Source: a virus. From it: 23,435 nt of DNA. Under the pieces are notes generated by a model, which worked only from the letters and a program-made list of their open reading frames with translations, did no database searches and was not told where the DNA came from. Positions 7,752-23,435 of this stretch are shown here, one piece after another (the first letter of the stretch is position 1; every line of letters starts with the position of its first letter). The DNA lies in IMG/VR virus record IMGVR_UViG_3300037011_000133, positions 1 to 23,435 of that record, one strand, 5' to 3'. The position numbers and the translations under genes were made by a program.

Positions 7752-9454
7752 TAGGGTTTAGGTCGTCTGCGTCGAGCGCGGAGTCCCCCGTCGCCACCCA
7801 AATATTTCGTAATCCATTTTGCAATACTTTCATCAAGAACGTCCATGCTATTAACAACCGATATTTCCATAAGATTAGCAGCTCTCGTTGTCGCTTCTGA
7901 TATAGTTTTTGATGTTGCTGCGATTGAATTAAGGCCCGTCGTAACTCTATCTATAGTCTTTCCAAACTCAGCCTCCATTAAAGGACCCTGTGCTTTATCT
8001 AGAGCTAAGCCTGTTCTACCAAGTTTTTTCATTGCTTCAGACGGTTCAGCAGAGCCAGCAGCACCCATCATCCTTCCAGCATCAAGTTCTCCTGTAGCTT
8101 CGCCATATAACTTTATCGCCTCATCTCGTGCCTCTTTACCGGCGCCTTTAAATATTCCTGTACCGACACCAAGAAGACCTCCCTGTTGTCCCATAACTCC
8201 AAATGTTTTAGCTGCACCTGACATCATTTTCATCCATGCTGGAGATGCTGTGCCCATGCTTTTTGCTTCAAGAAAATCCATATAAGAACTACCCGGATTA
8301 GCTTGTTGAAACTGCTGGAACAAAATCATTTCAGAAGCTTCATTCCCACCTGCAGCACCTGCAGCACCTGCAGAGCCCTGAGTAAGTGCAGCCATAGCAA
8401 TTGCAGGAGAATTTAATTGCTGTGCCATCGTTGTACTGGTAGCCATATTAAAAAGACGATTTCCAGCACTTGGACCAAACATAAAAGATTGTCCCCTAGC
8501 TATTTCCATTGCTTGCGCAATCTGTGGAATCTGAAATCCTGTTCTTTCTGAAGCTCTTAAAAGCTCATTCTCACTAAATCCTGTTCTATTACTGATCTGC
8601 ATAGCAACTGCATTAGCACCAATATCTTGACCATAAATACTCATGTTTGTAATCTGTCTAGCTCTATCCATACTAAACTTACTGTAACCTCTAGCTCCTT
8701 GTGCCTGGACATTGGCTATAATACCCGCCGACTCCATACCGCTAATTCCCAACTCAGAAAGAACAAAAGCAGCTTCTGAACCACCCTGACCGCGCATTCC
8801 CTTTCCAGCAACATCGCCTCTCTGAAGACGATAATTCAACATCATGCTGTCTCTAGCACCAATAACTCTTTCAGTTGCCATTCTTGCAGCTTGTTCTTCA
8901 CCCGCTGCTTTAATAGATGCCTCTTGAAAAAATCCTCGACCTATTGCTGCATTTCCTCCTGCAGCACCCAAGCCAACAATGGCGCCAGAAACATAAAGGC
9001 CTATTCCTGGAATCATAGCGGCAAGACCAGCCATGACTGTAGTAACTATTTGACCCGTATCTCGTTCTCTTTCCATCATGCGGCCGCCCACTTGACCCAT
9101 CGTACCACCAAGCATTTCATACGGTCTAGCAATAGAGTATTTAGAATATTGTGAAACCATTGGACCAGCTAATGCCAGTGCAGTACCAAGAATCTCAAGT
9201 CCCTTTAAGTGCTGAGTTAAAGTGTCTTTGCTATCAGCCTGTGCTCTTACTGATTTTCCTGTTACTTCAGTAAGTTTTTCAATACTATCTTTAAGACCCG
9301 AAAGTATATCATTAACATTCTTACCGCCCACAGCTACTCCCGTATTAGGGTCGATAATATGACTACTACCTCCCACAACAGGTCCTCCCGCCATCTTATT
9401 AACAGCGGCTGTCAGTTCTCTAATAGCATTATTTAAGCCCACATCAGGAGGCAT
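7751..9454 (-). CDS. Tail tape measure protein
   Basis: This 567-residue protein is rich in Ala, Gly and Met, has helical stretches at both ends and a hydrophobic segment at about residues 136-170 (IVTTVMAGLAAMIPGIGLYV onward). It sits directly between the two-frame chaperone and the hub, the diagnostic place of the tape measure, which sets tube length and is ejected during infection. At the usual 1.5 angstrom per residue it predicts a tube of about 85 nm. A nine-base tandem repeat encodes GAAGAAG near residues 362-368. The C-terminus is strongly basic (LRARRRRPKP). ATG at 9454 overlaps the chaperone end by 11 bases. The length is modest for a myophage, and no lytic domain is seen. Confidence 0.87.
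   Translation of the reverse strand: MPPDVGLNNAIRELTAAVNKMAGGPVVGGSSHIIDPNTGVAVGGKNVNDILSGLKDSIEKLTEVTGKSVRAQADSKDTLTQHLKGLEILGTALALAGPMVSQYSKYSIARPYEMLGGTMGQVGGRMMERERDTGQIVTTVMAGLAAMIPGIGLYVSGAIVGLGAAGGNAAIGRGFFQEASIKAAGEEQAARMATERVIGARDSMMLNYRLQRGDVAGKGMRGQGGSEAAFVLSELGISGMESAGIIANVQAQGARGYSKFSMDRARQITNMSIYGQDIGANAVAMQISNRTGFSENELLRASERTGFQIPQIAQAMEIARGQSFMFGPSAGNRLFNMATSTTMAQQLNSPAIAMAALTQGSAGAAGAAGGNEASEMILFQQFQQANPGSSYMDFLEAKSMGTASPAWMKMMSGAAKTFGVMGQQGGLLGVGTGIFKGAGKEARDEAIKLYGEATGELDAGRMMGAAGSAEPSEAMKKLGRTGLALDKAQGPLMEAEFGKTIDRVTTGLNSIAATSKTISEATTRAANLMEISVVNSMDVLDESIAKWITKYLGGDGGLRARRRRPKP
8348..8374 (-). repeat. Three tandem copies of a 9-base unit inside the tape measure gene
   Basis: The plus strand reads acctgcagc, acctgcagc, acctgcaga. 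On the coding strand this gives Ala/Gly repeats. Being nine bases long, gain or loss of a unit keeps the frame and would change tape length by three residues per unit. Confidence 0.8.
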
Positions 9455-9914
9455 CTACTTTTTCCCAATCTTCATCTGGAGTCATGAGCGATTCTAAATC
9501 GACATCTTCGCCCTTTTCTAGTCGCTTAGCTATACTATCATATTCATCTGTATTTCTATAAATAATTTTATTGTCGTCTCCCTCTTCTTCTTCAAATCGA
9601 TGTTCAATCCATTTACTGTATTCAGATTGAAGAACGAGTTCATACACGATTTCTTCGTCTGTAAGATCTAAAAACTGAGGGTTATTGGGGGGGAGATTGT
9701 ATTTAGACCGATAGATTAATCGAGCCAAATTGTTTTTCAATTCATCATTGGCTTGCTTTTTGAGTTTCTGAAATGCAAAATCTTCTATATCGTCATCGAC
9801 ATCAGGATCTTTTCTAGAAGCTGCCGTCAGCTCACGACGGAGAAGGTTCTGCTGGAGCTTGGATACGAAAAAAGGCGAAGTTTTGATAATCGGTAAGCAT
9901 CTGGCGGAGAACAT
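9444..9914 (-). CDS. Tail assembly chaperone, second-frame (T-like) extension
   Basis: This frame overlaps the end of the upstream chaperone gene by 83 bases and runs to the tape measure start, as in lambda G/GT and many other tailed phages, where the second frame is made only as a fusion. The frame is open from 9929. Its first ATG (9914) has no ribosome binding site, so separate initiation is unlikely. The offset from the first frame is +1 (equivalently -2). The unique part is acidic and helical (KLKKQANDELKNNLARLIYR; DLTDEEIVYELVL; RFEEEEGDDN). Shifting at the T-run described at 9866-9873 would give a 238-residue fusion, 98 residues from the first frame and 140 from this one. The fusion would bind the tape measure and recruit tube subunits during tail assembly, and would be absent from the virion. 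Confidence 0.8.
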   Translation of the reverse strand: MFSARCLPIIKTSPFFVSKLQQNLLRRELTAASRKDPDVDDDIEDFAFQKLKKQANDELKNNLARLIYRSKYNLPPNNPQFLDLTDEEIVYELVLQSEYSKWIEHRFEEEEGDDNKIIYRNTDEYDSIAKRLEKGEDVDLESLMTPDEDWEKVDAS

Positions 9915-10161
9915 GCCAATCAGACGTATCTATTTCTTCAAATTTTAGATCAACTGGTTTATCTACTATAACTGTCTCCAATGTTGCTGTAGCATAAGCC
10001 AACAGCTCAGAAGTTTCATCAAGAGAAGGAAAACCAGCTTTATAAACGGCAAAACGCTGACCTATTGCTATCTGCTCTCCAACTTTTGGAGTTTTATATC
10101 TAATCTTGTATTCTTTTCCATCAAAATTGTACGTAAAGTATTGCGAGATTTTTTGAGACAT
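9832..10161 (-). CDS. Tail assembly chaperone, first-frame (G-like) protein
   Basis: This 109-residue protein (start MSQKISQYFTYNFDGKEYKI) follows the tail tube gene and precedes the tape measure, the conserved site of the gpG-type chaperone. It has a beta-rich N-terminus followed by a helical part (ETSELLAYATATLETVIVDK; DWHVLRQMLTDYQNFAF) and ends at TGA 9834-9832. The start at 10161 is preceded by AGAGG. The identification rests on position, size and the second overlapping frame rather than on residue-level similarity. It is expected in excess over the frameshifted form and should work in the cytoplasm during assembly only. Confidence 0.78.
   Translation of the reverse strand: MSQKISQYFTYNFDGKEYKIRYKTPKVGEQIAIGQRFAVYKAGFPSLDETSELLAYATATLETVIVDKPVDLKFEEIDTSDWHVLRQMLTDYQNFAFFRIQAPAEPSPS
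9866..9873 (-). promoter_or_regulatory. Candidate programmed +1 ribosomal frameshift site
   Basis: On the coding strand, codons GCC TTT TTT CGT place a run of six T residues followed by C in the window where both frames are open (9929-9834). With the second TTT in the P site, one-base forward slippage lets tRNA-Phe re-pair with TTC and continue as GTA TCC AAG in the second chaperone frame. This is the only obvious slippery run in the overlap. A -2 slip would reach the same frame but gives poorer re-pairing here (TTT to CCT). The exact site is inferred. Confidence 0.55.
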
Positions 10162-12571: not shown

Positions 12572-13210
12572 TTATGCAGTGCCCATGATATTTTGCCAGA
12601 AATCAGTACCGCATGATTGCATGAAAATCTGGTTGATCGGACCGTACACATCATTCCACGACTCTACATAGCGGAATCTAACAATCAAATGAACATGAAA
12701 CACATCTTGCGGGAAAAACTCGGCATCTGGTGAAAATCTATCCGTGTTTATGTCCAAGTCCGGCATATCATCGTTGACAGCCGAATAACTTTCCAAAATA
12801 AATCTAATGAAAGTACCGAGAAGCCTCACTAGCAAGATCTGTTTTGCCAGAATGTTAATGGAATAAACACCCATGTTGATGGTGCCATACTCTTCTGTAT
12901 CTGTGCCATCGTCCATGATAGCACTGCCTAATACGTCGCCAATAGGTTTATCTGATTCTATTTGCGTTTCTTGATCCATAATTACAACGATGTTTGGAAC
13001 CACTGCTGAAATCGTTGCATATGTTGTATGATACTGAATCTTGTCATTAATAATGATGTCTTTGAATGCAGAACGTTCTTCTTCGCTTAAGTCTACTGTG
13101 TCAAATAGGTATTTGAATGTCTGATCAAACGCACTACCCGTTGACTTCAGCGCAGTGAACGCCGTTTGTATAATGCGCAGTATTTTATATTCATTAAATG
13201 GAAAAGCCAT
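12572..13210 (-). CDS. Probable tail terminator / tail completion protein
   Basis: This 212-residue protein sits immediately upstream of the sheath, where myophages encode the protein that caps the finished tail and joins it to the neck. The C-terminal half has a beta strand pattern seen in such proteins (VFHVHLIVRFRYVESW, residues 170-185), preceded by a long hydrophobic helix (SINILAKQILLVRLLGTFIRFILESY, 117-142; shown here only for its amphipathic character). The N-terminus is helical (EYKILRIIQTAFTALK). The ATG overlaps the upstream stop as TAATG and is preceded by GGAG. The call depends mainly on position and size; a neck or head-closure subunit is the main alternative. Confidence 0.5.
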   Translation of the reverse strand: MAFPFNEYKILRIIQTAFTALKSTGSAFDQTFKYLFDTVDLSEEERSAFKDIIINDKIQYHTTYATISAVVPNIVVIMDQETQIESDKPIGDVLGSAIMDDGTDTEEYGTINMGVYSINILAKQILLVRLLGTFIRFILESYSAVNDDMPDLDINTDRFSPDAEFFPQDVFHVHLIVRFRYVESWNDVYGPINQIFMQSCGTDFWQNIMGTA

Positions 13211-14520
13211 TATTCAGCTCCGAGATCTGCGACCTTCTTCTTTGCTTTACGTTCTCTTTCAATCTTACCAGAGTCAACTTCTCTTTGTTTCTCATCGGTT
13301 TGCTGATAAGTTGGAGTTCGACCTGGAGGACGCTGACCATCTTTCACTAATGTTGCAGGCTGGCCACCCTGAACAACCACTCGACCGCCCTTAGTAATAT
13401 ATGCTGAATCAGTCTGCCAAGTGTTCATAACATCTTGCTGAGATTTCTTGGCTAGCTTTAGATTGTGAGCCCAAACTTCGTCTGTCATAGCTTCTCCAAA
13501 TTTACTCTGCGCCTCTGGGTTTTTAGCATTTTTGAAGTGGAACTTTACCGCAACACGTTTTGCCTTGTCGCTGTCAGCATTCTTGACGTATTCGCGTCCA
13601 ACGGCTCCTCCCACCTTTTCGGGTGCGAAGCCTTTATGAAGGTCGCATGTGCGTTCGTCAAGAGACTTATATCGAATCTTAGGATCTTGCGAATCCTGCG
13701 GGTTGTTGAACTTCTTTGAGCCAGGGACATATTTACCCTTATCTTCTGGGCCTTCTTTCATTAATCCGTGCTTCTTTGCCAATTTCACCTTCGAATCATC
13801 AAACTCCTTTGGCGTAATGAGTTTATTCGCTTTCTCTAGATCTGAATCAAGAGACTTTTTCGCAGAATCTGCATCACTTGGGAGTGGGCCTCTTGTATCT
13901 GAGTTGCTATCTGACCTTTCATTATCTCTTGGGTGTAGATTACTGTCAGGGTCTTGCTTACGACCATGTCGTTTCACACCAGATTTGCGAGGACCGTAAT
14001 CCACATTGAGGGATTTCACCAAATCGGTTGTTCTCTCGTCAAGCGACTTTGTCCGACTTTCATAATGCTTTTGAGATTCGGCAGCAATCTTGTCTTCTTC
14101 TGAAGCTCGTTTGTGCAAGCCTTCGATACTAGCTCGCGATCCAGCTTTCTTACTGACATTAGAAAGAAGTTCTTTCTTTCGCTCTTCTGATAGAGCGGGA
14201 GATTTTACTTTCCCAGGCTTAGACGAATCTTTTCCGGAGCCTCTCTCTACCTTGCCGTGAGACGCACCTGCACCATAGACGGCTTTTTCAATAAGAGAAT
14301 CAATAGATTTTACAAGATCAGAATCTTCGGACTTTTCAGCATGCTTTTTGTCATAAGATGCCCAAGCTTTTTCTCCAACGATTCTTTTTCTTTCAGCCTC
14401 TGGTTTATCAAAAAATTTTGACGGAACCTTTTTAGCTTCGGGACGTTGGAGCGGTGTGCTCTTAGCCTTTTCAAGAATGTTGTCTATAATCGATTTATCC
14501 AATTCTAGCCTCGCTTTCAA
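13210..14520 (-). CDS. Charged, probably disordered repeat protein A (function unknown)
   Basis: This 436-residue protein is dominated by Lys, Asp, Glu, Ser and Arg and looks largely disordered. It belongs with the two charged proteins at 15084-18288. It has the same hydrophobic-x-Lys-small motifs: LDKSIIDNILEKA (7-19), DLVKSIDSLIEKA (68-80), DLVKSLN (166-172), DLEKANK (227-233), DLHKGF (293-298). A KSLDERT unit occurs twice (158 and 285), each followed by DL-x-K. The last 90 residues are more folded-looking (SAYITKGGRVVVQGG). No ATG exists before the first in-frame stop upstream. TTG at 14520 is used here, but TTG at 14505, with GAGG six bases upstream, would give MDKSIIDN, closer to the start of its relatives. 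The start region overlaps the end of the homing endonuclease. No function is recognised; a virion-internal or assembly role is inferred from position. Confidence 0.75.
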   Translation of the reverse strand: MKARLELDKSIIDNILEKAKSTPLQRPEAKKVPSKFFDKPEAERKRIVGEKAWASYDKKHAEKSEDSDLVKSIDSLIEKAVYGAGASHGKVERGSGKDSSKPGKVKSPALSEERKKELLSNVSKKAGSRASIEGLHKRASEEDKIAAESQKHYESRTKSLDERTTDLVKSLNVDYGPRKSGVKRHGRKQDPDSNLHPRDNERSDSNSDTRGPLPSDADSAKKSLDSDLEKANKLITPKEFDDSKVKLAKKHGLMKEGPEDKGKYVPGSKKFNNPQDSQDPKIRYKSLDERTCDLHKGFAPEKVGGAVGREYVKNADSDKAKRVAVKFHFKNAKNPEAQSKFGEAMTDEVWAHNLKLAKKSQQDVMNTWQTDSAYITKGGRVVVQGGQPATLVKDGQRPPGRTPTYQQTDEKQREVDSGKIERERKAKKKVADLGAE

Positions 14521-15082
14521 GTCTTCGCCTAAAACATACTTTTTTTATCGCTACGCTTATTTTTTCTTTTGTCTCATCAGAAAGTTTTGTTCCCGTTAGA
14601 GTTTTGCTGATTTTCTTCTTATATTCTTCCGAGAGATGTTTTCCTTTATTCCATGGAATATTTCCCTGTTTTGCTATACGCATATTCTTTTTATGTTCTT
14701 CAGATTTAGGCTTTCTCATTTTCTCTTTTGTTTCTTCAGATCTATGTTTTCTCATTTTATGCTTTGTTTCTTCGGAATGTCTGCAGCCCAACCGACTAAC
14801 AACACATTCTCTCCTTATAGCATATTCAGGTTTCCATAAATCTGTATAATATTGTTCACGTGCTGCCAATATTTTGCTATCTCTATCGGTATGTTCAACT
14901 TCTGAAAACTCAAACAAATTTTCGCCGTCTTTATTCCAAGCACGTTGAAGATGAATATTTGAATGTAGTCCTTTTTTAAGAAGCCACTTATGCTTTGCCC
15001 ATCTCTCACTAAAATCAACGGTACTGCCGATATACATATGATGGTTTCGCATATTCATTATTTGATAGACGCCCGAATTCAT
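14495..15082 (-). CDS. Free-standing GIY-YIG homing endonuclease (Seg-like)
   Basis: The 195-residue protein has an N-terminal GIY-YIG nuclease domain with G-V-Y (4-6), Y-I-G (17-19), the conserved Arg in FSERW (R27) and the metal-binding Glu in AREQYY (E76), so it looks catalytically complete. The rest is a DNA-binding region of five SEETKxKMRK-like repeats (about residues 102-177, NUMOD3 type). Such enzymes cut an allele lacking the gene and spread by repair; their genes are selfish elements common in phages. It lies between two related charged-protein genes: it starts one base after the upstream stop and its end overlaps the downstream start by 26 bases, so it has been fitted into the operon. 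Its own ribosome binding site is poor, suggesting coupled or low expression. Confidence 0.93.
   Translation of the reverse strand: MNSGVYQIMNMRNHHMYIGSTVDFSERWAKHKWLLKKGLHSNIHLQRAWNKDGENLFEFSEVEHTDRDSKILAAREQYYTDLWKPEYAIRRECVVSRLGCRHSEETKHKMRKHRSEETKEKMRKPKSEEHKKNMRIAKQGNIPWNKGKHLSEEYKKKISKTLTGTKLSDETKEKISVAIKKVCFRRRLESEARIG
14552..14779 (-). repeat. Tandem NUMOD3-type repeats in the homing endonuclease
   Basis: Five units of about 11 residues follow the pattern (H/R/K/L)S(E/D)E-x-K-x-K(M/I)(R/S): HSEETKHKMRK, RSEETKEKMRK, KSEEHKKNMRI, LSEEYKKKISK, LSDETKEKISV. They form the helical DNA-recognition part of Seg/I-TevI-type enzymes. The first three are nearly contiguous; spacers separate the last two. 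Confidence 0.8.
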
Positions 15083-15083
15083 A

Positions 15084-16112
15084 TTAATGTCGTTTTAAGC
15101 CAGCTTCTGAAGCCTTCCGGTCGCTGGGGTCTTTGCTTTCAGCCAACTTTTTTAAATTTCGTATAGTACCTGGCTCGGCACGTTCAAACGACGCCTTCTC
15201 TTTAGAACCCCCAGGGTTGCCCATTGTAGCCATGCTACCGCCTGGGAGTTCTACACCTTCACCCTCTGATTCTTCAAACTTCTTACGGTCGCCTAAAGCT
15301 GCCTTATTCTTACCACGACGGCCTTTTTCAAGAATTTCATCAAATACAGAAAACACGGACGCGTTCTTCAGCTCTTTTTCATGGGCAGCATTAGCAGGAA
15401 TAACTTTCCTATTTTTCTTTCCGCCCTCCATATTACTTTCGAACACCTCTACGTCACCCGTTTTAGGTCGATTTCGATATGTCTTAGCTGGTGGGACGAG
15501 AAACCCGTCTTCCTTAGTAAAAACATCTGTATCAGTACCTTTACCGTCAATGTCTTGTTCGATTTCTTTTGATGCTGACTTATTAAACATTGATTTATTA
15601 GACGGAGCATGTTTCTCGAAATTAGCATCTAACTCTTCGTCTTTATCTGTATCGCGAGCATTACTTTCAGCATACTTTGCAGCACGAGGAGGAGCCTTTT
15701 CTTTTTTTGGCGGAGGACTCTTAAGATCATATGATCCGTGGGGAGCAGATGTTTTATAAGACGTTCCAATAACATTCTTTTCAGATTTTATTAAACCCAT
15801 GTTTTCAAGAACAGATTTTGAGAAGTCAAGAGAATATGAAGCATTTTTTAATTCTTTTTCATGAGCAGCATTAGCAGGAATAGTTTTCAATTTCTTTCGA
15901 GGAGCAGTTTCTACTTCTCGATGTACGTTGATTTCGCCTTTGTTCTTATCATATGCATACTCTTTGCCTCTATGCGTCGACGTTGCATTTAAACCATGAT
16001 GCGCCTTTTCTTGAACAACAGGCTTTCCTTTATGTCGACCATATTCAGCTTTTCCCAAATAATCAACATCAGCAAATATAAGTCGATCTATTACCGATTT
16101 AGAGAACTTCAC
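15084..16112 (-). CDS. Charged repeat protein B with two IPANAAHEKELKNAS modules (function unknown)
   Basis: This 342-residue, highly charged protein starts at GTG 16112 (MKFSKSVID), one base after the upstream stop, behind AAGAG. It carries two copies of a module that runs from a Y...K-G-x-(I/V)-x-V strand to IPANAAHEKELKNAS: residues about 50-92 and 212-252. Each is followed by a short amphipathic helix (LDFSKSVLENMGLIKSE at 95-111; FSVFDEILEKG at 254-264). The segments between are Pro, Lys and Asp rich and probably disordered. The C-terminal 70 residues contain GGSMATMGNPGG and a basic end. It shares modules with the neighbouring 724-residue protein, so the two arose by duplication and module exchange. 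No enzyme or binding domain is recognised. Confidence 0.78.
   Translation of the reverse strand: MKFSKSVIDRLIFADVDYLGKAEYGRHKGKPVVQEKAHHGLNATSTHRGKEYAYDKNKGEINVHREVETAPRKKLKTIPANAAHEKELKNASYSLDFSKSVLENMGLIKSEKNVIGTSYKTSAPHGSYDLKSPPPKKEKAPPRAAKYAESNARDTDKDEELDANFEKHAPSNKSMFNKSASKEIEQDIDGKGTDTDVFTKEDGFLVPPAKTYRNRPKTGDVEVFESNMEGGKKNRKVIPANAAHEKELKNASVFSVFDEILEKGRRGKNKAALGDRKKFEESEGEGVELPGGSMATMGNPGGSKEKASFERAEPGTIRNLKKLAESKDPSDRKASEAGLKRH
15357..15482 (-). repeat. IPANAAHEKELKNAS module, copy 2 of protein B
   Basis: Residues 211-252 of protein B: TYRNRPKTGDVEVFES, a short basic linker, then VIPANAAHEKELKNAS. The core DNA (attagcagga on the plus strand and flanks) is nearly identical to the other copies. 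Confidence 0.8.
15837..15965 (-). repeat. IPANAAHEKELKNAS module, copy 1 of protein B
   Basis: Residues 50-92 of protein B: KEYAYDKNKGEINVHREV, a basic linker, then TIPANAAHEKELKNAS, followed by YSLDFSKSVLENMGLIKSE. The same YSLDFSKS-x-M/L unit recurs near residue 618 of the 724-residue neighbour. Confidence 0.82.
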
Positions 16113-16113
16113 G

Positions 16114-18288
16114 TTAATCTCTTTTCTTGTCCAGAATAGCGTCCAGAGACTTATAAAGGTCAGCTGAGGAGACGGAAGCGTTCTTCAACTTTGATTCTTC
16201 ACTTACGCCGATTTCTCTAGTCTTTTCGCCTTCTTTCTCTACGTTGACAGTTCCCTTAGCAGGATTGTGGATGTATTTCTTATCGCTCTTTGCCTTAGGG
16301 TGCTTGAACCGAGTAGTTGGCTTTGAGCCATAGTTGATCTGAGTAGCCTTACCTCCGCCGGCTTCCTTGGAGACAGAAGTGGCGCCCTTTTCAAGACCCA
16401 TTCTTTCCATAATAGACTTTGAAAAGTCTAGTGAATATTCTTCGCTCATATTATCCTCGCTTTTTTCGAGATCTGATTCCTCTGATTTAGCTGCGCCACC
16501 TGTGCCAACGCCTTGCTTTAATGCAGCAAGAGCTTTTAGATTAACCTTTTTATTCGTTAGCGGATTATCTTCTTCACTTGGAGCAGCTTTATAAGCGCCC
16601 GGCATCTGAGCCAACATCCTGCGCTTAGCAGGATCAACCGACGATCCGCCGACAACAGCCTTAAGAATTTCTTCCATCCTGTCAGCGCCCATAGTCTTGA
16701 GTAAGTGACTGAGAATTTCCTCGTCGGCTGTCATGGACTTCTTAGCATTCTTCTCAGGCGGGATGGTATCATCATCCTCCATCTCGTCTTCGAATTCATC
16801 AGGAAGATTATCAGCCAAGTTATCAGATTTTTCAAGACCAAAATACTCCTCTATAATTTCGTTCGTTTCGTCGATGTCATAACCTTTTTCCATCAAGAAA
16901 TCACCCACTATTTCAATTGCTTTTTCAAGGTCGAAGTCATTTTGAGAAGCGTTCTTTAGTTCTTTTTCATGAGCAGCATTAGCAGGGATGCTTCTTTTTC
17001 TAGTTCTTCCTTCTTCAGGAGACGAAGAGATTTTCATCTTGTCTGTTTTTTTATCATATTCAGACTCTTTAAAATAAAGCTTTCTTCCTTTATCGTCTTT
17101 GCCCGCAGCATCGTCGTGCGCAATTGTTTTGGGATTTCTACTTTCTGATTCACTGTGCTGTCTGACACCGCCGCGGCCATTTTTTAAATCATAACCTTCG
17201 TTTCTACGCTTATAATCGCCCACATATTCAAAATCAGACTTTGAAAGGTCACCATCCTCTATTGAAGCCTTCTTTGTTCCTGTACCGGGCTCGTTAGGGC
17301 CAATGCCTGAAGGTTTGCCTTCATGTTTGATAGAATCGGGACGAGCTACTGCAGCATGACCTTCTCCGCCAATGGTGTCTTCGGAGCCATCCTGGAACTC
17401 TTCACCTGATTCGTTCTTTTTCTTGCCCTTGAGAAGTTCATCTAAAATCTCTTGAGCGTCGGGATGCCCCTTGAGAAGCGTTGCAACCGTCATTTCGTCA
17501 ATTGTGTAGGATCTTTCCAACTTAGGCTCCTTTGCCGCATCAGCACGGTCTTCTGCTTTCATTCTAGCGCCCTCAGCTTTCTTAGGCTTATACATAGGAT
17601 CAGTATGATCTCGTTCTTCTTTATCTTTTTGCTTCAAGCTTTCGGGATAGCCTTTAATGATCAATTCGGGCAGTACGGTTCTATTTTCAAAAGACTTATT
17701 CAAGAAAGAATCTACCGAGCGGCGCATGTCGGCCCGCACAGCACGAGCAGTTTCAGGATCGCCGCCCGGCATATCTATATTTTCTTGCTGCTTTTTATTT
17801 TTCCCTGACGTCTCAGCTCGTCGAATATATTCACTTTTAATATCATCCAAATCACCACCAGATGACCAGCCAACAGGTGCAGGATGTCTTTCGTCACGGT
17901 CTAGAGCTCGAGCAGCTTTAATCTTACTGTCTCTGGATGTTTTCTCTAGATCGAAGTCATCTTGAGATTTCTTAGCATATTTCGCTGCCGATCGGCGAGC
18001 AAAACCCGCTGATTGTGCATCGGCTGGGCCTGTTTCAGAATGAGCTTCAAATATATAGTCTTTAGCTTTCTTTTTAGACATGCCCTTTGTATCAGATTCA
18101 TCATTCTCTCTAGCGCCAGCTAAGCCTTCTCGTACTTTACCAACCTCTTCTCTTGACATATCCCGAATTCTTTTCTTAGGAGCTAATCCCGCATCGTGAT
18201 AATGCATACCCGACTGCGCAGCTCTCGTATCTTTCGATTCCGACTTTAGAAGTCCCATATTGGCCAGCACTGATTTACTATATTCCAT
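16114..18288 (-). CDS. Charged repeat protein C, largest member of the module family (function unknown)
   Basis: This 724-residue protein begins MEYSKSVLANMGLLKSE and is almost entirely charged and probably disordered, with an acidic run at about 491-509 (LPDEFEDEMEDDDT). It has one full IPANAAHEKELKNAS module (411-448) and one diverged copy (672-705, ending SEESKLKNAS). At least a dozen hydrophobic-x-Lys-small motifs are scattered along it, including DLEKTS (113), FLNKSF (195), LLKGHP (271), DLSKSD (347), DLEKAI (453), GLEKSD (484), DLEKSE (606), DFSKSI (621) and DLYKSL (710), often paired around short amphipathic helices. ATG 18288 has GGGAG seven bases upstream, overlapping the end of the neck gene. 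Encoded between neck and tail genes, it may be a virion-internal, scaffold-like or assembly protein. This is inference only. Confidence 0.78.
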   Translation of the reverse strand: MEYSKSVLANMGLLKSESKDTRAAQSGMHYHDAGLAPKKRIRDMSREEVGKVREGLAGARENDESDTKGMSKKKAKDYIFEAHSETGPADAQSAGFARRSAAKYAKKSQDDFDLEKTSRDSKIKAARALDRDERHPAPVGWSSGGDLDDIKSEYIRRAETSGKNKKQQENIDMPGGDPETARAVRADMRRSVDSFLNKSFENRTVLPELIIKGYPESLKQKDKEERDHTDPMYKPKKAEGARMKAEDRADAAKEPKLERSYTIDEMTVATLLKGHPDAQEILDELLKGKKKNESGEEFQDGSEDTIGGEGHAAVARPDSIKHEGKPSGIGPNEPGTGTKKASIEDGDLSKSDFEYVGDYKRRNEGYDLKNGRGGVRQHSESESRNPKTIAHDDAAGKDDKGRKLYFKESEYDKKTDKMKISSSPEEGRTRKRSIPANAAHEKELKNASQNDFDLEKAIEIVGDFLMEKGYDIDETNEIIEEYFGLEKSDNLADNLPDEFEDEMEDDDTIPPEKNAKKSMTADEEILSHLLKTMGADRMEEILKAVVGGSSVDPAKRRMLAQMPGAYKAAPSEEDNPLTNKKVNLKALAALKQGVGTGGAAKSEESDLEKSEDNMSEEYSLDFSKSIMERMGLEKGATSVSKEAGGGKATQINYGSKPTTRFKHPKAKSDKKYIHNPAKGTVNVEKEGEKTREIGVSEESKLKNASVSSADLYKSLDAILDKKRD
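16174..16275 (-). repeat. Diverged module copy at the C-terminus of protein C
   Basis: Residues 672-705 of protein C: YIHNPAKGTVNVEKEG, a linker, then IGVSEESKLKNAS and the helix ADLYKSLDAILDKK. The strand and the KLKNAS end align with the other copies while PANAAHEKE is replaced. Confidence 0.65.
16945..17058 (-). repeat. IPANAAHEKELKNAS module in the middle of protein C
   Basis: Residues 411-448 of protein C: YDKKTDKMKISSS, a basic linker, then SIPANAAHEKELKNAS, followed by the helix FDLEKAIEIVGDFLMEKG. The core plus-strand DNA tctttttcatgagcagcatt is shared exactly with copy 1 of protein B. Confidence 0.8.
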
Positions 18289-18299
18289 CTTAATTCTCC

Positions 18300-19079
18300 C
18301 TATCCGAAGAGGTAGCTATCCGGTATTTCAAGTTTTGCGGTGAATAAGCGGGGTAGATCTTCAAATGCCTGAACTCCACCTGTAGCAGGAGACTTTCCAG
18401 CCACTGTTCCGCGGATTTCATGAGCCGCCGTTATTACAATGTAGCTCGGGAAGAAGGTGTAGAGAGCACTAAATCCCTTACCAGATGGAGGCCTGCATTT
18501 TCCTTCAGTCCATACTAATTGACCATCTGCATTTGAATCTACATCTCTGTCTTCAACATTGAGGTTCGTACAATCATACGATTTACCATCAACGTCGAGC
18601 ACCTGCATTAGTTCCACAATGGGAAACGTAAAGTTGTATGTTTCTATCGCAGGATCGAACACTTTAGCTTCCGACCTGAAAGTGACCGACTCCTTGAACA
18701 CCATACGATCCCGAATGTTGACTTTATAGGCGGGCTCACATGTTAAATTAACGAAAATATTTGATAAAACACCAGGTTGAGCCACTCTGTATGTTAATGT
18801 CTGCTCTTCTCTTCTATTCGAAGAAGGCACCGCTCTTATTTCATTCGTGAATACATAAGTCCAGCCAGTTCCGTTGCAGAGTCCACACGCCAACTGTCTA
18901 AACTTTAAATCGGTTTGCTGAGGTGATAATGTGCATGGGCACACTAACGCCTGCCACCAATCAAATCTTGAACCGTACTGCTGTATGAGCCCTATCGCCG
19001 CCCGAGTATTGTAGTCAATCTTTATAGGATTGAAATGTACCCGGGCTGCTCCCTTGGCAGTGCTACGGTTGAGAGCCAT
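18300..19079 (-). CDS. Probable neck / head-closure protein with CxC...CxxC motif
   Basis: The 259-residue protein follows the head-tail connector gene with a TAATG overlap and is therefore probably a second neck component. Its N-terminal part has four cysteines, C47-x-C49 and C65-x-x-C68 within CGLCNGTGW, an arrangement suited to one zinc ion. The rest is beta-rich (TLTYRVAQPGVLSNIFVNLT; YIVITAAHEIRGTV), like head-closure barrels. Head-closure proteins form a ring below the connector and bind the tail terminator. The role is inferred from order and fold pattern; the cysteine motif is seen directly. An alternative is a minor virion protein unrelated to closure. Confidence 0.55.
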   Translation of the reverse strand: MALNRSTAKGAARVHFNPIKIDYNTRAAIGLIQQYGSRFDWWQALVCPCTLSPQQTDLKFRQLACGLCNGTGWTYVFTNEIRAVPSSNRREEQTLTYRVAQPGVLSNIFVNLTCEPAYKVNIRDRMVFKESVTFRSEAKVFDPAIETYNFTFPIVELMQVLDVDGKSYDCTNLNVEDRDVDSNADGQLVWTEGKCRPPSGKGFSALYTFFPSYIVITAAHEIRGTVAGKSPATGGVQAFEDLPRLFTAKLEIPDSYLFG

Positions 19080-19828
19080 TATGCAGCTACCAGAGTCAAT
19101 CCATAGTAGTATTGTCTAAGCGTCTTAACTACTTCTGACATTTCTCTTTCCATTTGTCTGATTCTGCCTCCGTATGCAGCGTTTTCAGCCGACGCCGTAG
19201 TGCTAACCGACTGGGAAAGTCCATCGATTCCGATAGAATAGCCAGCTAACGCGGCCTGACCACCGAGAGCAATTTCACCAAGAACATTAAGAACTCCAGT
19301 CGTAGCATTCATTGCTATAAGTTGCACTAGCAAATCTGGAGCATCTTCATTTTCACCAATACCTGCAGTATACGAAACCCTCAGAATTTGAGGGATGTAA
19401 ATCGAGCTAGCCATTAAGGGCATAAATAGCAGCATTTGATTGCCGATGTCTGCACTTGCTAATGTTCCGTAATAAGGAATGAGCGTTACTTGAGCCGATT
19501 TCTTTTTTAATTGAATCCATTCCCGAGGAATAGAAATAATTGATGTAATAACATTTAGCTCCATTGCAGTAACTTCGACAGCAGGACGAGTGTTCAATTG
19601 AACGTATCCGTATCCGCTCATCCACTCTTCGACTCGATAGTCATATGTCTCGTTCTCAATAACCTTAGGACGTATCGAAATGTTCAATAACAGCTCTGCT
19701 CTACTTATTGCAGAATCAATGTAGAACTGAATGGCTTCATCGGTAAGCTTGTCGTCGTCAAATTCGATCGGAATACGCCACAACCAGATTTCCTTTAACC
19801 AGTCTGGCGTAATATCTTTAATTTTCAT
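19079..19828 (-). CDS. Head-tail connector (adaptor) protein, gp6/gp15-like
   Basis: The 249-residue protein has the helical start typical of the HK97 gp6/SPP1 gp15 adaptor family: LTDEAIQFYIDSAISRAELL (28-47), then a strand with VIENETYDYRVEEWM and NTRPAVEVTAMELNV. A long hydrophobic and glycine-rich section (about 170-205) and a C-terminal helix (RIRQMEREMSEVVKTLRQYY) extend it beyond the smallest family members. Adaptors form a twelve-subunit ring under the portal. ATG 19828 is preceded by GGGAG. The stop overlaps the next start (TAATG), coupling it to the neck protein. The position before the neck, terminator and sheath genes agrees. Confidence 0.7.
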   Translation of the reverse strand: MKIKDITPDWLKEIWLWRIPIEFDDDKLTDEAIQFYIDSAISRAELLLNISIRPKVIENETYDYRVEEWMSGYGYVQLNTRPAVEVTAMELNVITSIISIPREWIQLKKKSAQVTLIPYYGTLASADIGNQMLLFMPLMASSIYIPQILRVSYTAGIGENEDAPDLLVQLIAMNATTGVLNVLGEIALGGQAALAGYSIGIDGLSQSVSTTASAENAAYGGRIRQMEREMSEVVKTLRQYYYGLTLVAA

Positions 19829-19872: not shown

Positions 19873-20259
19873 TTAGTTTCTATCGTACGTTGATTTAGAT
19901 TTATGAATTTCCATAGTACGCTCCAGCACATCTATTCGAATAGTGTTAACCCGTTGACGCTCTTCTAAAACTGCTGTTTTTTCAGCCATCGAAGTAAAAT
20001 TTGGACGGCCTGCCTGCACTAATTCTGCAATCGTTACTCGTCTGTCAAGATTTCCAAGTTGTGTCAGCATGTAAAAAATCACAGCTAAAGCCGGAAAAAC
20101 AGCAATTTGAGAGATTTTATAAATTACGTCCCACGGAATACCGTTACTCTTCTTAGTAGCTTCTGCTTCTTGCGTTAATCGTCTGTCTTCAGAAAGAGCT
20201 TCGCGAAGTATACGTACGAGTTCTTCATTAGTAGCGACATCGTTAATTAAATTGTTCAC
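19873..20259 (-). CDS. Small single-pass membrane protein with C-terminal coiled coil
   Basis: This 128-residue protein has a charged helical N-terminus (EELVRILREALSEDRRL), one clear membrane segment at about 46-68 (VIYKISQIAVFPALAVIFYM) and a C-terminal heptad-like helix (AVLEERQRVNTIRIDVLERTMEI, 96-118; coiled-coil spacing). GTG at 20259 is the start, behind AAGGACGGA. The layout recalls XhlA-type or holin/spanin-associated phage membrane proteins, but no family motif fixes this and no endolysin gene is nearby. It could instead help anchor assembly at the membrane or alter the host envelope. It is placed alone between the fibre-like gene and the neck genes, with 68- and 44-base gaps. Confidence 0.62.
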   Translation of the reverse strand: MNNLINDVATNEELVRILREALSEDRRLTQEAEATKKSNGIPWDVIYKISQIAVFPALAVIFYMLTQLGNLDRRVTIAELVQAGRPNFTSMAEKTAVLEERQRVNTIRIDVLERTMEIHKSKSTYDRN

Positions 20260-20327: not shown

Positions 20328-23300
20328 TTAACGAAACCACCCGCGGAATCTTATTGCTCGCACCCTATGCAGTGCGCTTTGCGTATATACGACAACTAAA
20401 TATGGCCTTTTGTTAGTCGTACCCTCAATCGACGTAAAAATCCGATTAGTATCTGCAACTCCGTCTTGCATCCCAGATATTGAAACATACAGCGGCGAAG
20501 CGTTTGCGTATGCCCATGCAGTCATCGCAGTAACATCGAAGCTAACCCACCCAGGAATCTTCCCAACTTCAGTAAAAGACTCGTAAGCTTGCATAACATT
20601 GTCGAAAGTTGCCCAAGTGACTGTTGATATATTTTGCGGGCTAGACCGCTGAGCAAACAGCCGCATAGGATCTGTACCAGCAAAGCCGTCTACAGACTCC
20701 ATATACTTATATAAAGTCGCCGATACAATAGTCGCGTTGTTTGGCAACCCAAGCACAATGTTGTCAAGTATACGATTAGCAACAGTATAATGTGGCCACT
20801 GATAAACCTCTGTATAAATATTGCTTGAATAATTTGTAAACGGAGATCCACTGTTAATAAACGTATCTTGAATAGCCGAGATGCTAACCGTCACGAGTAC
20901 GCTATCATCAGCAACGTACAAAGTCAATGCCTTCGTACCAGTGTTCGCGCTATTATCTGTTGCCGTCACAGTGATAGGATACGTCCCAATCACAGTAGGC
21001 GTTCCAGAAATTACACCGCTCTGTGAAAAGTTTAACCCAGAAGGTAACACGCCTGAAATAATCGCCCACGTGTACGGAGAGGGTATTCCGCCGGTCGCCG
21101 TTAACGTCTGAAAATATGCTGTGCCCTTTGTTCCGCTAGGGAGCGAAGTCGTTGTTACATATACCGGAGCCGTAGCGCTATAGACGAACACAACCCAATC
21201 GGCCGCACCAGCAGGACGGTTAAATGTTCTAGTAGCCGGACCCGTAGTTACTGTCCCGGTTGTAGTAACTCCCGTCACGGGATCAAAATATTTGACTGAG
21301 TACGAACCGGCTCCAAGCGTGATATTAACAGATGCTCCAGAGAGAACATATCCTAAGTACTGCGATCCTATTTTCGCTAGAAGAGAGTTCGTTGTATTTG
21401 TACTGATGAGCGAATGCTGCGGAGACATGTCCCAAAACTGCACCGCATTGTTGGCAAGGAACTGTGGTATATACCCATAATAAGTGGCTTTAGCCATTTG
21501 CAACCCGCCGCCATATCCGCCAAACGACCACCAATCGCTAGAAAATCCTCCCCATCCAAATGCCCCACCAGTAAGCGAGTACCATGCCGCCTTGCGTAAA
21601 TCGTCAGCGGAGCCATGCTGCAGAATAGAACCATCCGGATCAAGCATTGCCGGATAACCTTTACCAACTATAGAAGCAACCTTAGTCTTTACATCGGCTG
21701 GAGATGCCCCAATATGTGAAACCCATCCTCCTGTAGAAGACGGCATAGTACATCCTCCAGAGCCCTCATAACAAGTATTGATCGTTACGGGCTTGCTCGT
21801 CTTCGTAATCATGTAATTTCGAACAGCAGTAGCCCACGTAGGACAGGTTGAAGTAGTAAATTCGTTACCTACTTCATAAAAAACATTATTATATCCATCT
21901 ATTTCCGCTATTAATTTATCGATCAATCGCTTCTGATAATATCCTATGCCTGTGCTAGCAGTAAATGCTGCTGTATTGCAAAATTCATTTGAATCTGCGG
22001 CGTCTCCATCAGAGTTCGTATCAACGTTCCCATAGAAACTCGTCGTTTGGTTAGCAAGATTCCAGTCAGAATTAGACCAACGATAGGCCGCCGGATTAGA
22101 ATCTGTGATACCATATCCATCAAACACCGACAGATGCATAAAGATACCCTGCCCTGCCGCATTCTCTACGTCGCTTCTAAGATTCGTCCAATAAGTATCG
22201 TCCCATTGGTTCATATTCGCCTTGTCTCCTTGATACAAAAACGGAGTGTGCGAAGTTAACCCATCAGAAGACGGCGGCGAAGTAGTTGCTGTATACCTGT
22301 ACTGAGATACCAACGCACGCATATAGTTTAGGCCATAAGGACCTATAGCATCGGCAATTTGCTTCAAAGTATACGCATCAGAAGTCCCAGTATGACCAGC
22401 CGATTGATCACAATATCCGATCAGAAACTTCGGAGTACCAGAGGCATCCGTAAAGTATCGACCGTTGATAACAGACATGTTTCCTGCAGCAAATACAATA
22501 ATTGACAACGCTTGGTCGTCTATAACTGATAAAGCATCTGTAACGCGCACAGTAAAGTTGAACATACCGAGAGTAGTAGTCGTACCCGTAATAACACCGG
22601 CAGACGACAAGCTCAATCCAGTCGGAAGCGAACCAGAAGGTTTAGAAAATGTATACGGCTCCTTACCTCCAGTAGCATAGACCGTCTGTGAATAGGGCGC
22701 AGACAATGCACCGCCGGGAAGAGTGGACGTCGTGATTGCTAGCGGAACCGGGTCAGATACAATTGTATATTGCCAAATATCTGTGGACATAATGTTCCCA
22801 GCACTATCGCGGAATCCAGAAGTAGACACATTCACGACTTGACCGTAAGACCAATCTGAGCTCTTCGTAAATGTCACTGAAACGTCGTTTGTCCCGTTAC
22901 CAGTACATATCAAACCAGCAGAGCAAGTGTAATCCGCTCCCTCAATATTCACAACGCCATTAGAAGTAAGTACATCAACCCCGTCTTGAACGTGGAAGCT
23001 GATTGTCCGATTAGTCTTGGCAACACCTACCGAAGACTTTGTGGGAGACCATTGAGAAGAGTACGGACGAGATGTATCGTCAGCGCCACCACCTATCGGC
23101 GTCGTGCTGATGATGGCGTGATCCATGTAGAAGAAGTCTGATTGATCCTTTGTTTCACCATGCCCTCCCCATATAGGGAGCAGGTTGGACAGCCAAAAGT
23201 TTCTCGTTCCCCAGTTGCTTTCTGCACCACCGCCGTTTTTCCTAAGTTCTACGTCCGTGTACTCAAATTGCAGTACGTCGTTTATCCACGCTCTTGCGAT

Positions 23301-23435
23301 ACCATTTGCGGAACCGGAAGTATTCAGTTTCACATACCATGATAATTTGTACCAAACACCATCCACCATGCCGATTGCGCCGGGTTGATTGGGATATAAG
23401 TTCCTCTGCGGCAGACCGGATGAGTTCGGTTGTAG
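20328..23435 (-). CDS. Mosaic adhesin/glycosidase-like fibre protein (5' end beyond the window)
   Basis: The frame is open to the right edge, so the N-terminus is missing; numbering here is from the internal Met at 23369, with 22 more visible residues before it. Domains in order: concanavalin-like lectin/lyase fold (to about 90; WYKLSWYVKLNTSG, ARAWINDVLQF), a Big_5-like Ig domain (about 110-205), a putative Ig He_PIG domain (209-293), a clan GH-A-type barrel resembling DUF4038/GH140 (297-640) with NVFYEVGNEF holding the expected acid/base E503, a collagen-binding-2-like strand domain (670-733), a second He_PIG domain (736-820) and a DNRLRE/CBM96-like domain (824-996; AIQDTFINSGSPFTNY). The end is basic (RVRAIRFRGWFR). 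Where the catalytic nucleophile Glu is expected there is AMLDPDGS (D577). Probably a surface-binding virion protein; activity is uncertain. The DNA looks richer in G+C than the tail genes. Confidence 0.8.
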   Translation of the reverse strand, partial: LQPNSSGLPQRNLYPNQPGAIGMVDGVWYKLSWYVKLNTSGSANGIARAWINDVLQFEYTDVELRKNGGGAESNWGTRNFWLSNLLPIWGGHGETKDQSDFFYMDHAIISTTPIGGGADDTSRPYSSQWSPTKSSVGVAKTNRTISFHVQDGVDVLTSNGVVNIEGADYTCSAGLICTGNGTNDVSVTFTKSSDWSYGQVVNVSTSGFRDSAGNIMSTDIWQYTIVSDPVPLAITTSTLPGGALSAPYSQTVYATGGKEPYTFSKPSGSLPTGLSLSSAGVITGTTTTLGMFNFTVRVTDALSVIDDQALSIIVFAAGNMSVINGRYFTDASGTPKFLIGYCDQSAGHTGTSDAYTLKQIADAIGPYGLNYMRALVSQYRYTATTSPPSSDGLTSHTPFLYQGDKANMNQWDDTYWTNLRSDVENAAGQGIFMHLSVFDGYGITDSNPAAYRWSNSDWNLANQTTSFYGNVDTNSDGDAADSNEFCNTAAFTASTGIGYYQKRLIDKLIAEIDGYNNVFYEVGNEFTTSTCPTWATAVRNYMITKTSKPVTINTCYEGSGGCTMPSSTGGWVSHIGASPADVKTKVASIVGKGYPAMLDPDGSILQHGSADDLRKAAWYSLTGGAFGWGGFSSDWWSFGGYGGGLQMAKATYYGYIPQFLANNAVQFWDMSPQHSLISTNTTNSLLAKIGSQYLGYVLSGASVNITLGAGSYSVKYFDPVTGVTTTGTVTTGPATRTFNRPAGAADWVVFVYSATAPVYVTTTSLPSGTKGTAYFQTLTATGGIPSPYTWAIISGVLPSGLNFSQSGVISGTPTVIGTYPITVTATDNSANTGTKALTLYVADDSVLVTVSISAIQDTFINSGSPFTNYSSNIYTEVYQWPHYTVANRILDNIVLGLPNNATIVSATLYKYMESVDGFAGTDPMRLFAQRSSPQNISTVTWATFDNVMQAYESFTEVGKIPGWVSFDVTAMTAWAYANASPLYVSISGMQDGVADTNRIFTSIEGTTNKRPYLVVVYTQSALHRVRAIRFRGWFR

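Follow-up and report, generated by a model that had tools for sequence, protein, structure and literature searches.

The question raised by this locus is why a protein built largely like a secreted bacterial glycosidase is encoded just ahead of the connector genes of a phage, and where such a protein would act. The window, which is the whole analysed stretch of 23,435 nucleotides, is an IMG/VR contig of 23435 bases, i.e., a linear fragment, and all of its substantial genes lie on the minus strand. The open reading frame described in the first-pass annotation is real: it runs on the minus strand through 1035 codons to the window edge and is still open where the contig ends, and the start codon of this giant gene is not within the contig. 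The missing 5' part was sought using the last 30 bases of the contig, which no other IMG/VR contig has. The features discussed below are collected in Table 1.

Table 1. Positions of the giant gene, its predicted domains and candidate catalytic motifs, and the neighbouring genes in the window.
Feature	Positions	Strand	Evidence
Giant mosaic protein gene, C-terminal 1035 codons	20328..23435	minus	open to window edge; 5' part beyond contig end
PL14/lectin-type jelly roll, second half, residues 1-95	23151..23435	minus	Polysacc_lyase_14, E 3.1e-5
Probable bacterial Ig-like domain, residues about 110-215	22791..23108	minus	Big_12, E 0.11 only (weak)
He_PIG Ig-like domain 1, residues about 213-300	22536..22799	minus	PF05345, E 1.9e-10
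GH140-like glycosidase TIM barrel, residues 297-676	21408..22547	minus	AF2 model, PDB fold matches, Armatimonadota identity about 40%
Collagen_bind_2-type C-terminal sandwich, residues 677-755	21171..21407	minus	PF12904 in 24/28 homologues; strands at pLDDT about 96
He_PIG Ig-like domain 2, residues 757-845	20901..21167	minus	PF05345, E 5e-13
CBM96/DNRLRE carbohydrate-binding module, residues 849-1016	20388..20891	minus	PF24517, E 1.5e-7; NF033679, E 1.1e-11
Glu525, strand-4 NE motif, candidate acid/base	21861..21863	minus	invariant in 28 sequences and in 8 close ones
DPD motif Asp599-Pro600-Asp601, in or just after strand 7, candidate nucleophile region	21633..21641	minus	invariant in 8-member subfamily
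SPO1 gp6.3 homologue, head-tail connector region	19079..19828	minus	phrog_772, E 1.7e-43; head-tail adaptor phrog_442, E 2e-4; SPO1 gp6.3, 33%
Virion structural protein, SPO1 gp6.4 position	18300..19079	minus	phrog_1004, E 9e-14; position in SPO1
Small one-pass membrane protein, holin-like topology	19873..20259	minus	homologue directly upstream of gp6.3 in L003 (68% identical) and L002 (65%)

As shown in Table 1, the visible part of the giant protein is a mosaic of domains. The Polysacc_lyase_14 match covers residues 19-69 and corresponds to positions 133-183 of the 215-position profile; since it begins at position 133, the first half of the jelly roll must be encoded off the window. On the whole protein, He_PIG is found in two copies with an E of 6.7e-19, and the second copy is at most 54% identical to the He_PIG domains of the major tail proteins of Gordonia and Rhodococcus phages. 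The C-terminal carbohydrate-binding module is matched over the whole domain and above both cut-offs (CBM96, 31.8 bits vs 26; DNRLRE NF033679, 45 vs 34). The matches of Collagen_bind_2 (E 0.008) and Apiosidase (E 0.019) to the phage protein alone are both below the cut-off, and among 28 homologues they are found in 24 and 13, respectively. In the predicted fold of all 1035 residues, only the barrel region is confident, and the rest, modelled without an alignment, has a pLDDT below 50. No collagen repeat is found in the visible part. The domain list given in the first-pass annotation was thus largely recovered by profile or fold, namely the lectin-like domain (as half of a PL14 jelly roll), the two He_PIG domains, the barrel, and the Collagen_bind_2-like and DNRLRE-like domains. 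The exception is Big_5, which was not recovered by name; the weak Big_12 match is the sole one, and an Ig-like domain at this position is plausible from the sequence. The interpretation of Collagen_bind_2 as an independent collagen adhesin was rejected because the bacterial homologues carry it together with the barrel, which indicates that the two are inherited jointly and identifies it as the sandwich normally present at the C-terminus of this enzyme type.

The AF2 model of the barrel has a pLDDT of 84 and a pTM of 0.86, and a Foldseek search against the PDB ranks the GH140 apiosidases 8t9w (mangrove GH140) and BT_1012 (5msy) first. These GH140/DUF4038 enzymes match the fold with a TM of about 0.60-0.69 and have in common with it the TIM barrel and the Collagen_bind_2-type sandwich, although just 12-15% of the residues are identical over the structural alignment. 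The order of a GH-A barrel followed by this sandwich, which is the GH140 architecture, was obtained consistently from AF2, Foldseek and the PF12904 matches of the homologues. A profile search with the homologue alignment gave a match to GH140/DUF4038 enzymes with an E of 1.5e-16, and the Apiosidase profile PF13204 gave scores of 15.0 and 18.1 bits for the phage domain, below the cut-off of 26.5.

The catalytic pair of the GH140 enzyme BT_1012 consists of an Asp and a Glu, and typical enzymes of clan GH-A carry a Glu on strand 7. In the 28-member alignment, Gln501, Asn524 and Glu525 (full-protein numbering) are invariant and Asp599 is nearly so; in the 8-member alignment, the NE motif and D599, P600, D601 and G602 are invariant. 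Where GH140 apiosidases have a Glu-bearing strand-7 motif, the phage barrel has DPDG, and in the whole 8-member subfamily neither the alignment nor the profile search revealed the canonical strand-7 Glu at the DPD region. Because the Apiosidase score is below the cut-off and this Glu is missing, the barrel is classified from its sequence and model as GH140-like and not as a member of GH140. The absence of the canonical nucleophile throughout the subfamily makes the enzyme activity uncertain. At the sequence level, the barrel has no sign of decay, and the candidate acid/base Glu and the DPDG are kept as in the bacterial subfamily.

The relatives of this barrel were found in bacteria. In IMG/VR, a direct query with the giant protein gave no relatives; phage records matched it only over short segments, almost always within the second He_PIG region, and gave no match to the enzyme region. 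The plasmid collection gave a single weak match, in Halomontanus (E 0.1), and the first scan of genome contigs gave no homologue. When the candidate acid/base motif FYEVGNE was scanned against the genome contigs, the Armatimonadota contig L134 was found, whose product is 41% identical to the phage protein along part of the barrel; the same scan of IMG/VR gave no relative. A search of Armatimonadota yielded full-length homologues with 39-41% identity at eight loci and, in many genomes, weaker ones; the best match to barrel and sandwich has an E of 2.4e-92. The earlier remark that the architecture is typical of bacterial secreted enzymes is borne out: the nearest homologues are Armatimonadota proteins, and export leaders are evident by eye in several of them, e.g., L142 and L143.

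The secreted glycosidases of Armatimonadota (L142, L143, L147-L151) are 35-39% identical to the phage protein over the aligned barrel and sandwich, or about 40% by local search, and carry the same NE and DPDG motifs. Most of them are exported proteins of 450-520 aa that stand alone, and L142 is a larger multidomain protein; the jelly roll, He_PIG and CBM96 domains of the phage protein are absent from them. In the tree, the phage domain and seven close bacterial proteins form one clade of 8 with a support of 100/100, within which the phage domain falls outside a bacterial clade supported at 97/97; therefore, none of the sampled genes is its recent source. The full-length homology over barrel and sandwich, the signature residues in common and the common clade all place the phage barrel in this Armatimonadota subfamily.

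The minus strand carries, in order, the truncated giant gene, the membrane protein gene that separates it from the gp6.3 homologue, the gp6.3 homologue itself and the homologue at the gp6.4 position. Beyond the latter, 13210-18288 is taken up by additional genes for charged proteins and a homing endonuclease, followed by the sheath, tube-like, chaperone pair and baseplate genes. With the gp6.3 homologue as the query, 225 phage records were obtained, in which SPO1-type Bacillus phages rank at the top with 33-34% identity. The order in SPO1 is portal, protease, scaffold, major capsid protein, gp6.2, gp6.3, gp6.4, three small genes, sheath, tube and chaperones; in the window, gp6.3, gp6.4, sheath, tube and chaperones are recognisable in this Herelleviridae-type order, with the extra genes at 13210-18288. 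The gp6.3 matches and the shared gene order indicate, at the level of sequence and synteny, that the phage is SPO1-like in its structural module. The public label of "tail fiber" on the gp6.3 homologue is doubtful. A search of 291 Armatimonadota genomes for the gp6.3 homologue, performed for host inference, gave no match.

Several features of the genes beyond gp6.4 were also observed. The charged proteins encoded at 16114-18288 and 15084-16112 (minus strand) contain repeated modules (PANAAHEKELKNAS and FSKS[IV][LM]E[NR]MG), and the 724-aa one has an ARPxxIKHEG...GPNEPGT motif common to the scaffold-position proteins of the relatives L003 and L009. These repeat proteins are possibly internal head proteins with a scaffold-derived signal in common. 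Between the charged protein genes, a GIY-YIG/NUMOD3 homing endonuclease is encoded at 14495-15082 (minus strand) and overlaps the start of the next open reading frame. At 9444-10161 (minus strand), the tail assembly chaperone reading frames overlap, and the CCTTTTTTCG stretch inside the overlap suggests programmed frameshifting, as annotated for SPO1 gp10.2-gp11.1.

The corresponding position was compared among 53 relatives gathered by gp6.3, in which the close clade has 58-93% identity in gp6.3. This clade includes 20 loci with a complete interval between the major capsid protein and gp6.3, with lengths of 1.4 to 4.2 kb; several are near-identical contigs, and the 20 loci should not be counted as independent cases. 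Collagen-like (SGYSG)n proteins are encoded in the interval in all 20, as determined by the (GXY)n count in 19 and by reading the open reading frames in L004, where two short SGYSG proteins are present. Small proteins of 110 aa, 127 aa and 248 aa come next in several of these intervals. In L002 and L003, which are the nearest relatives, gp6.3 is likewise preceded by this membrane protein (65-68% identity), and the position of the giant gene is taken by a 248-aa protein. The giant protein is found in none of the 20 close relatives with a complete interval, and neither it nor He_PIG or CBM96 is encoded elsewhere in the records of the relatives, many of which are fragments; the giant-protein search was run without a positive control.

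Outside the close clade, the interval holds just the small gp6.2 in SPO1, and in distant SPO1-like relatives most intervals span 0.3 to 1.2 kb and contain one or two small genes; longer intervals are those of L046 (1.6 kb) and L049 (5.2 kb). In some relatives, the interval also holds non-structural genes, namely an HNH-like gene in L017 and open reading frames for a PAS-domain protein and a response-regulator-like protein in L049 (L049:5799-9582). The major capsid gene of this phage lies beyond the contig end, and the placement between the major capsid protein and gp6.3 is known from the relatives; the exact far-side neighbour of the giant gene is presumably the same as in them. By comparison with the relatives, the giant gene appears to occupy a slot of the head module whose contents vary and are usually collagen-like proteins. 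This agrees with the first-pass annotation, according to which the gene lies upstream of the connector and neck genes and not after the baseplate genes; it precedes both the gp6.3-like and phrog_1004 genes.

Other observations concern the genes surrounding this slot. The SGYSG-repeat proteins, with up to 30 GYSG units, follow the major capsid protein throughout the clade (loci include L002:3767-4987, L003:2303-3160, L008:5066-6154, L022:7948-8805 and L023:7933-8886). A homologue of the membrane protein of the window, with 70% identity, is encoded downstream of gp6.3 at L023:11451-11900, which indicates that the membrane gene has changed its place relative to the neck genes. The one-pass membrane protein encoded immediately before gp6.3 has, in many close relatives, a C-terminal HH...CxxCH, which is a c-type haem motif (L014:9414-10001, L010:884-1471, L004:9533-9988, L007:521-871, L009:9428-10000, L011:4208-4582 and L013:4990-5355). 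Those of L010 and L014-L016 have two haem motifs and a cytochrome-like tail, with Pfam cytochrome matches of E 0.03 or worse, and the motif is missing in the membrane protein of the window, L002, L003 and L023. Judged from its sequence, the haem-motif protein appears to be a c-type cytochrome anchored in the membrane and encoded by the phage at a holin-like position.

With a bacterial secreted-type architecture, the giant protein joins sugar-binding domains to a putative sugar-cutting enzyme and probably serves to grip or trim sugars on the host exterior. Our main reading is that it is a late virion protein on the outside of the phage head that binds and cuts host-surface polysaccharide, with an estimated probability of about 0.48. 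This reading is supported by the SPO1 synteny, which puts the gene between the major capsid protein and gp6.3, and by the collagen-like proteins that fill the slot in all complete close relatives. The collagen-like gp12 of phage SPP1 is an accepted capsid decoration, and Ig domains make up T4 Hoc, for which an adhesin role has been proposed (PMC7602432). The two He_PIG domains of the giant protein correspond to the extended Ig-like or collagen-like folds of head decorations. The enzymatic part of the reading is based on the confident barrel model, the top-ranking GH140 matches and the retained Glu and DPDG. Incorporation into virions, attachment to the head, catalysis and the class of substrate are predicted. 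The off-contig N-terminus and the Ig-like domains would anchor the protein and hold it off the head shell, while the jelly roll and the CBM96 domain would bind polysaccharide. The GH140-like barrel with its C-terminal sandwich would cleave a sugar linkage in the host capsule, slime or surrounding matrix, and virions would thereby be held at the cell surface and be able to work through the cell coat.

The main reading is weakened by the fact that no phage relative has the giant protein and that the slot in relatives also holds the non-virion genes described above. The same genes give weight to a soluble late enzyme, released by lysis or exported by Sec, that would loosen exopolysaccharide for the spread of progeny, with the position in the head module being incidental. 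The architecture and the homologues are indeed those of exported enzymes, the neighbouring gene encodes a holin-like membrane protein, and the N-terminus lies off the contig; however, a gene placed in the head module more probably encodes a virion protein, and we regard the soluble enzyme as rather unlikely. The protein may instead form a fibre or spike attached to the neck, at a whisker or collar position, with a polysaccharide-degrading enzyme. The giant gene adjoins the connector genes, and Vibrio phage XM1 has tailspikes on the neck as well as the baseplate (PMC10457771). The slot in relatives, however, holds collagen-like proteins typical of capsid decoration, and in SPO1 only the small gp6.2, which makes the neck position distinctly unlikely.

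The remaining explanations concern the barrel and the gene itself. The replacement of the strand-7 Glu of typical clan GH-A enzymes by Asp-Pro-Asp would fit a catalytically dead barrel that serves purely as a sugar-binding adhesin. This appears quite improbable, in that the bacterial relatives with identical DPDG and NE motifs, mostly stand-alone exported proteins, are expected to be active. The location at the contig end and the absence from all relatives could also reflect an assembly chimera or a recent host gene stuck on the contig. However, the giant gene is on the same strand as the next gene, from which it is separated by a plain gap of 68 bases with no terminator-like site. Its GC3 (0.418) and its codon correlation with the rest (0.78) fall among the values for the phage's own genes and fit the neighbouring head genes, whereas these values differ in three of the four bacterial homologues tested. 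This argues for a phage protein and makes an artefact highly improbable.

Tailspikes and baseplates are the main known sites of phage enzymes that degrade polysaccharides, and the role known for head decorations is binding. A further step beyond the head-displayed reading is that a giant head-displayed enzyme has replaced or supplemented the collagen-like head fibres, so that a GH-A glycosidase with carbohydrate-binding modules is carried on the capsid and the head itself digests polysaccharide; we propose this tentatively and consider it somewhat unlikely. In the part of the literature covered, no report of a capsid-borne glycosidase or of a GH-A glycosidase in a head-fibre slot was found. 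If true, a secreted bacterial-type enzyme in such a slot would suggest that the heads of phages can be equipped with catalytic activity. It would also represent one route for bacterial carbohydrate-active domains into phage structural modules, and a testable reason for the high variability of the interval between the major capsid protein and gp6.3 in these phages.

Compared with known systems, T4 Hoc and other Ig-domain head decorations resemble the giant protein in that chains of Ig-like domains are encoded with head functions; Hoc, whose binding to the capsid is established, has no known enzyme domain or CBM96. The collagen-like capsid spike gp12 of SPP1 has its counterpart in the collagen-like proteins that fill the same interval in the close relatives, but the visible part of the giant protein is not collagen-like. 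The megatron, or hub, protein of roseophage R4C is a virion protein with a mannanase-like peripheral domain and a CBM (PMC10276861), and thus combines a glycosidase-type barrel with a carbohydrate-binding domain in one phage protein, as the giant protein does, although it is a baseplate hub of another location and lineage. The neck and baseplate tailspikes of XM1 provide the case of a sugar-targeting spike at the neck, away from the tail tip, but they are described as tailspikes and not as a GH-A barrel with Ig and CBM domains (PMC10457771).
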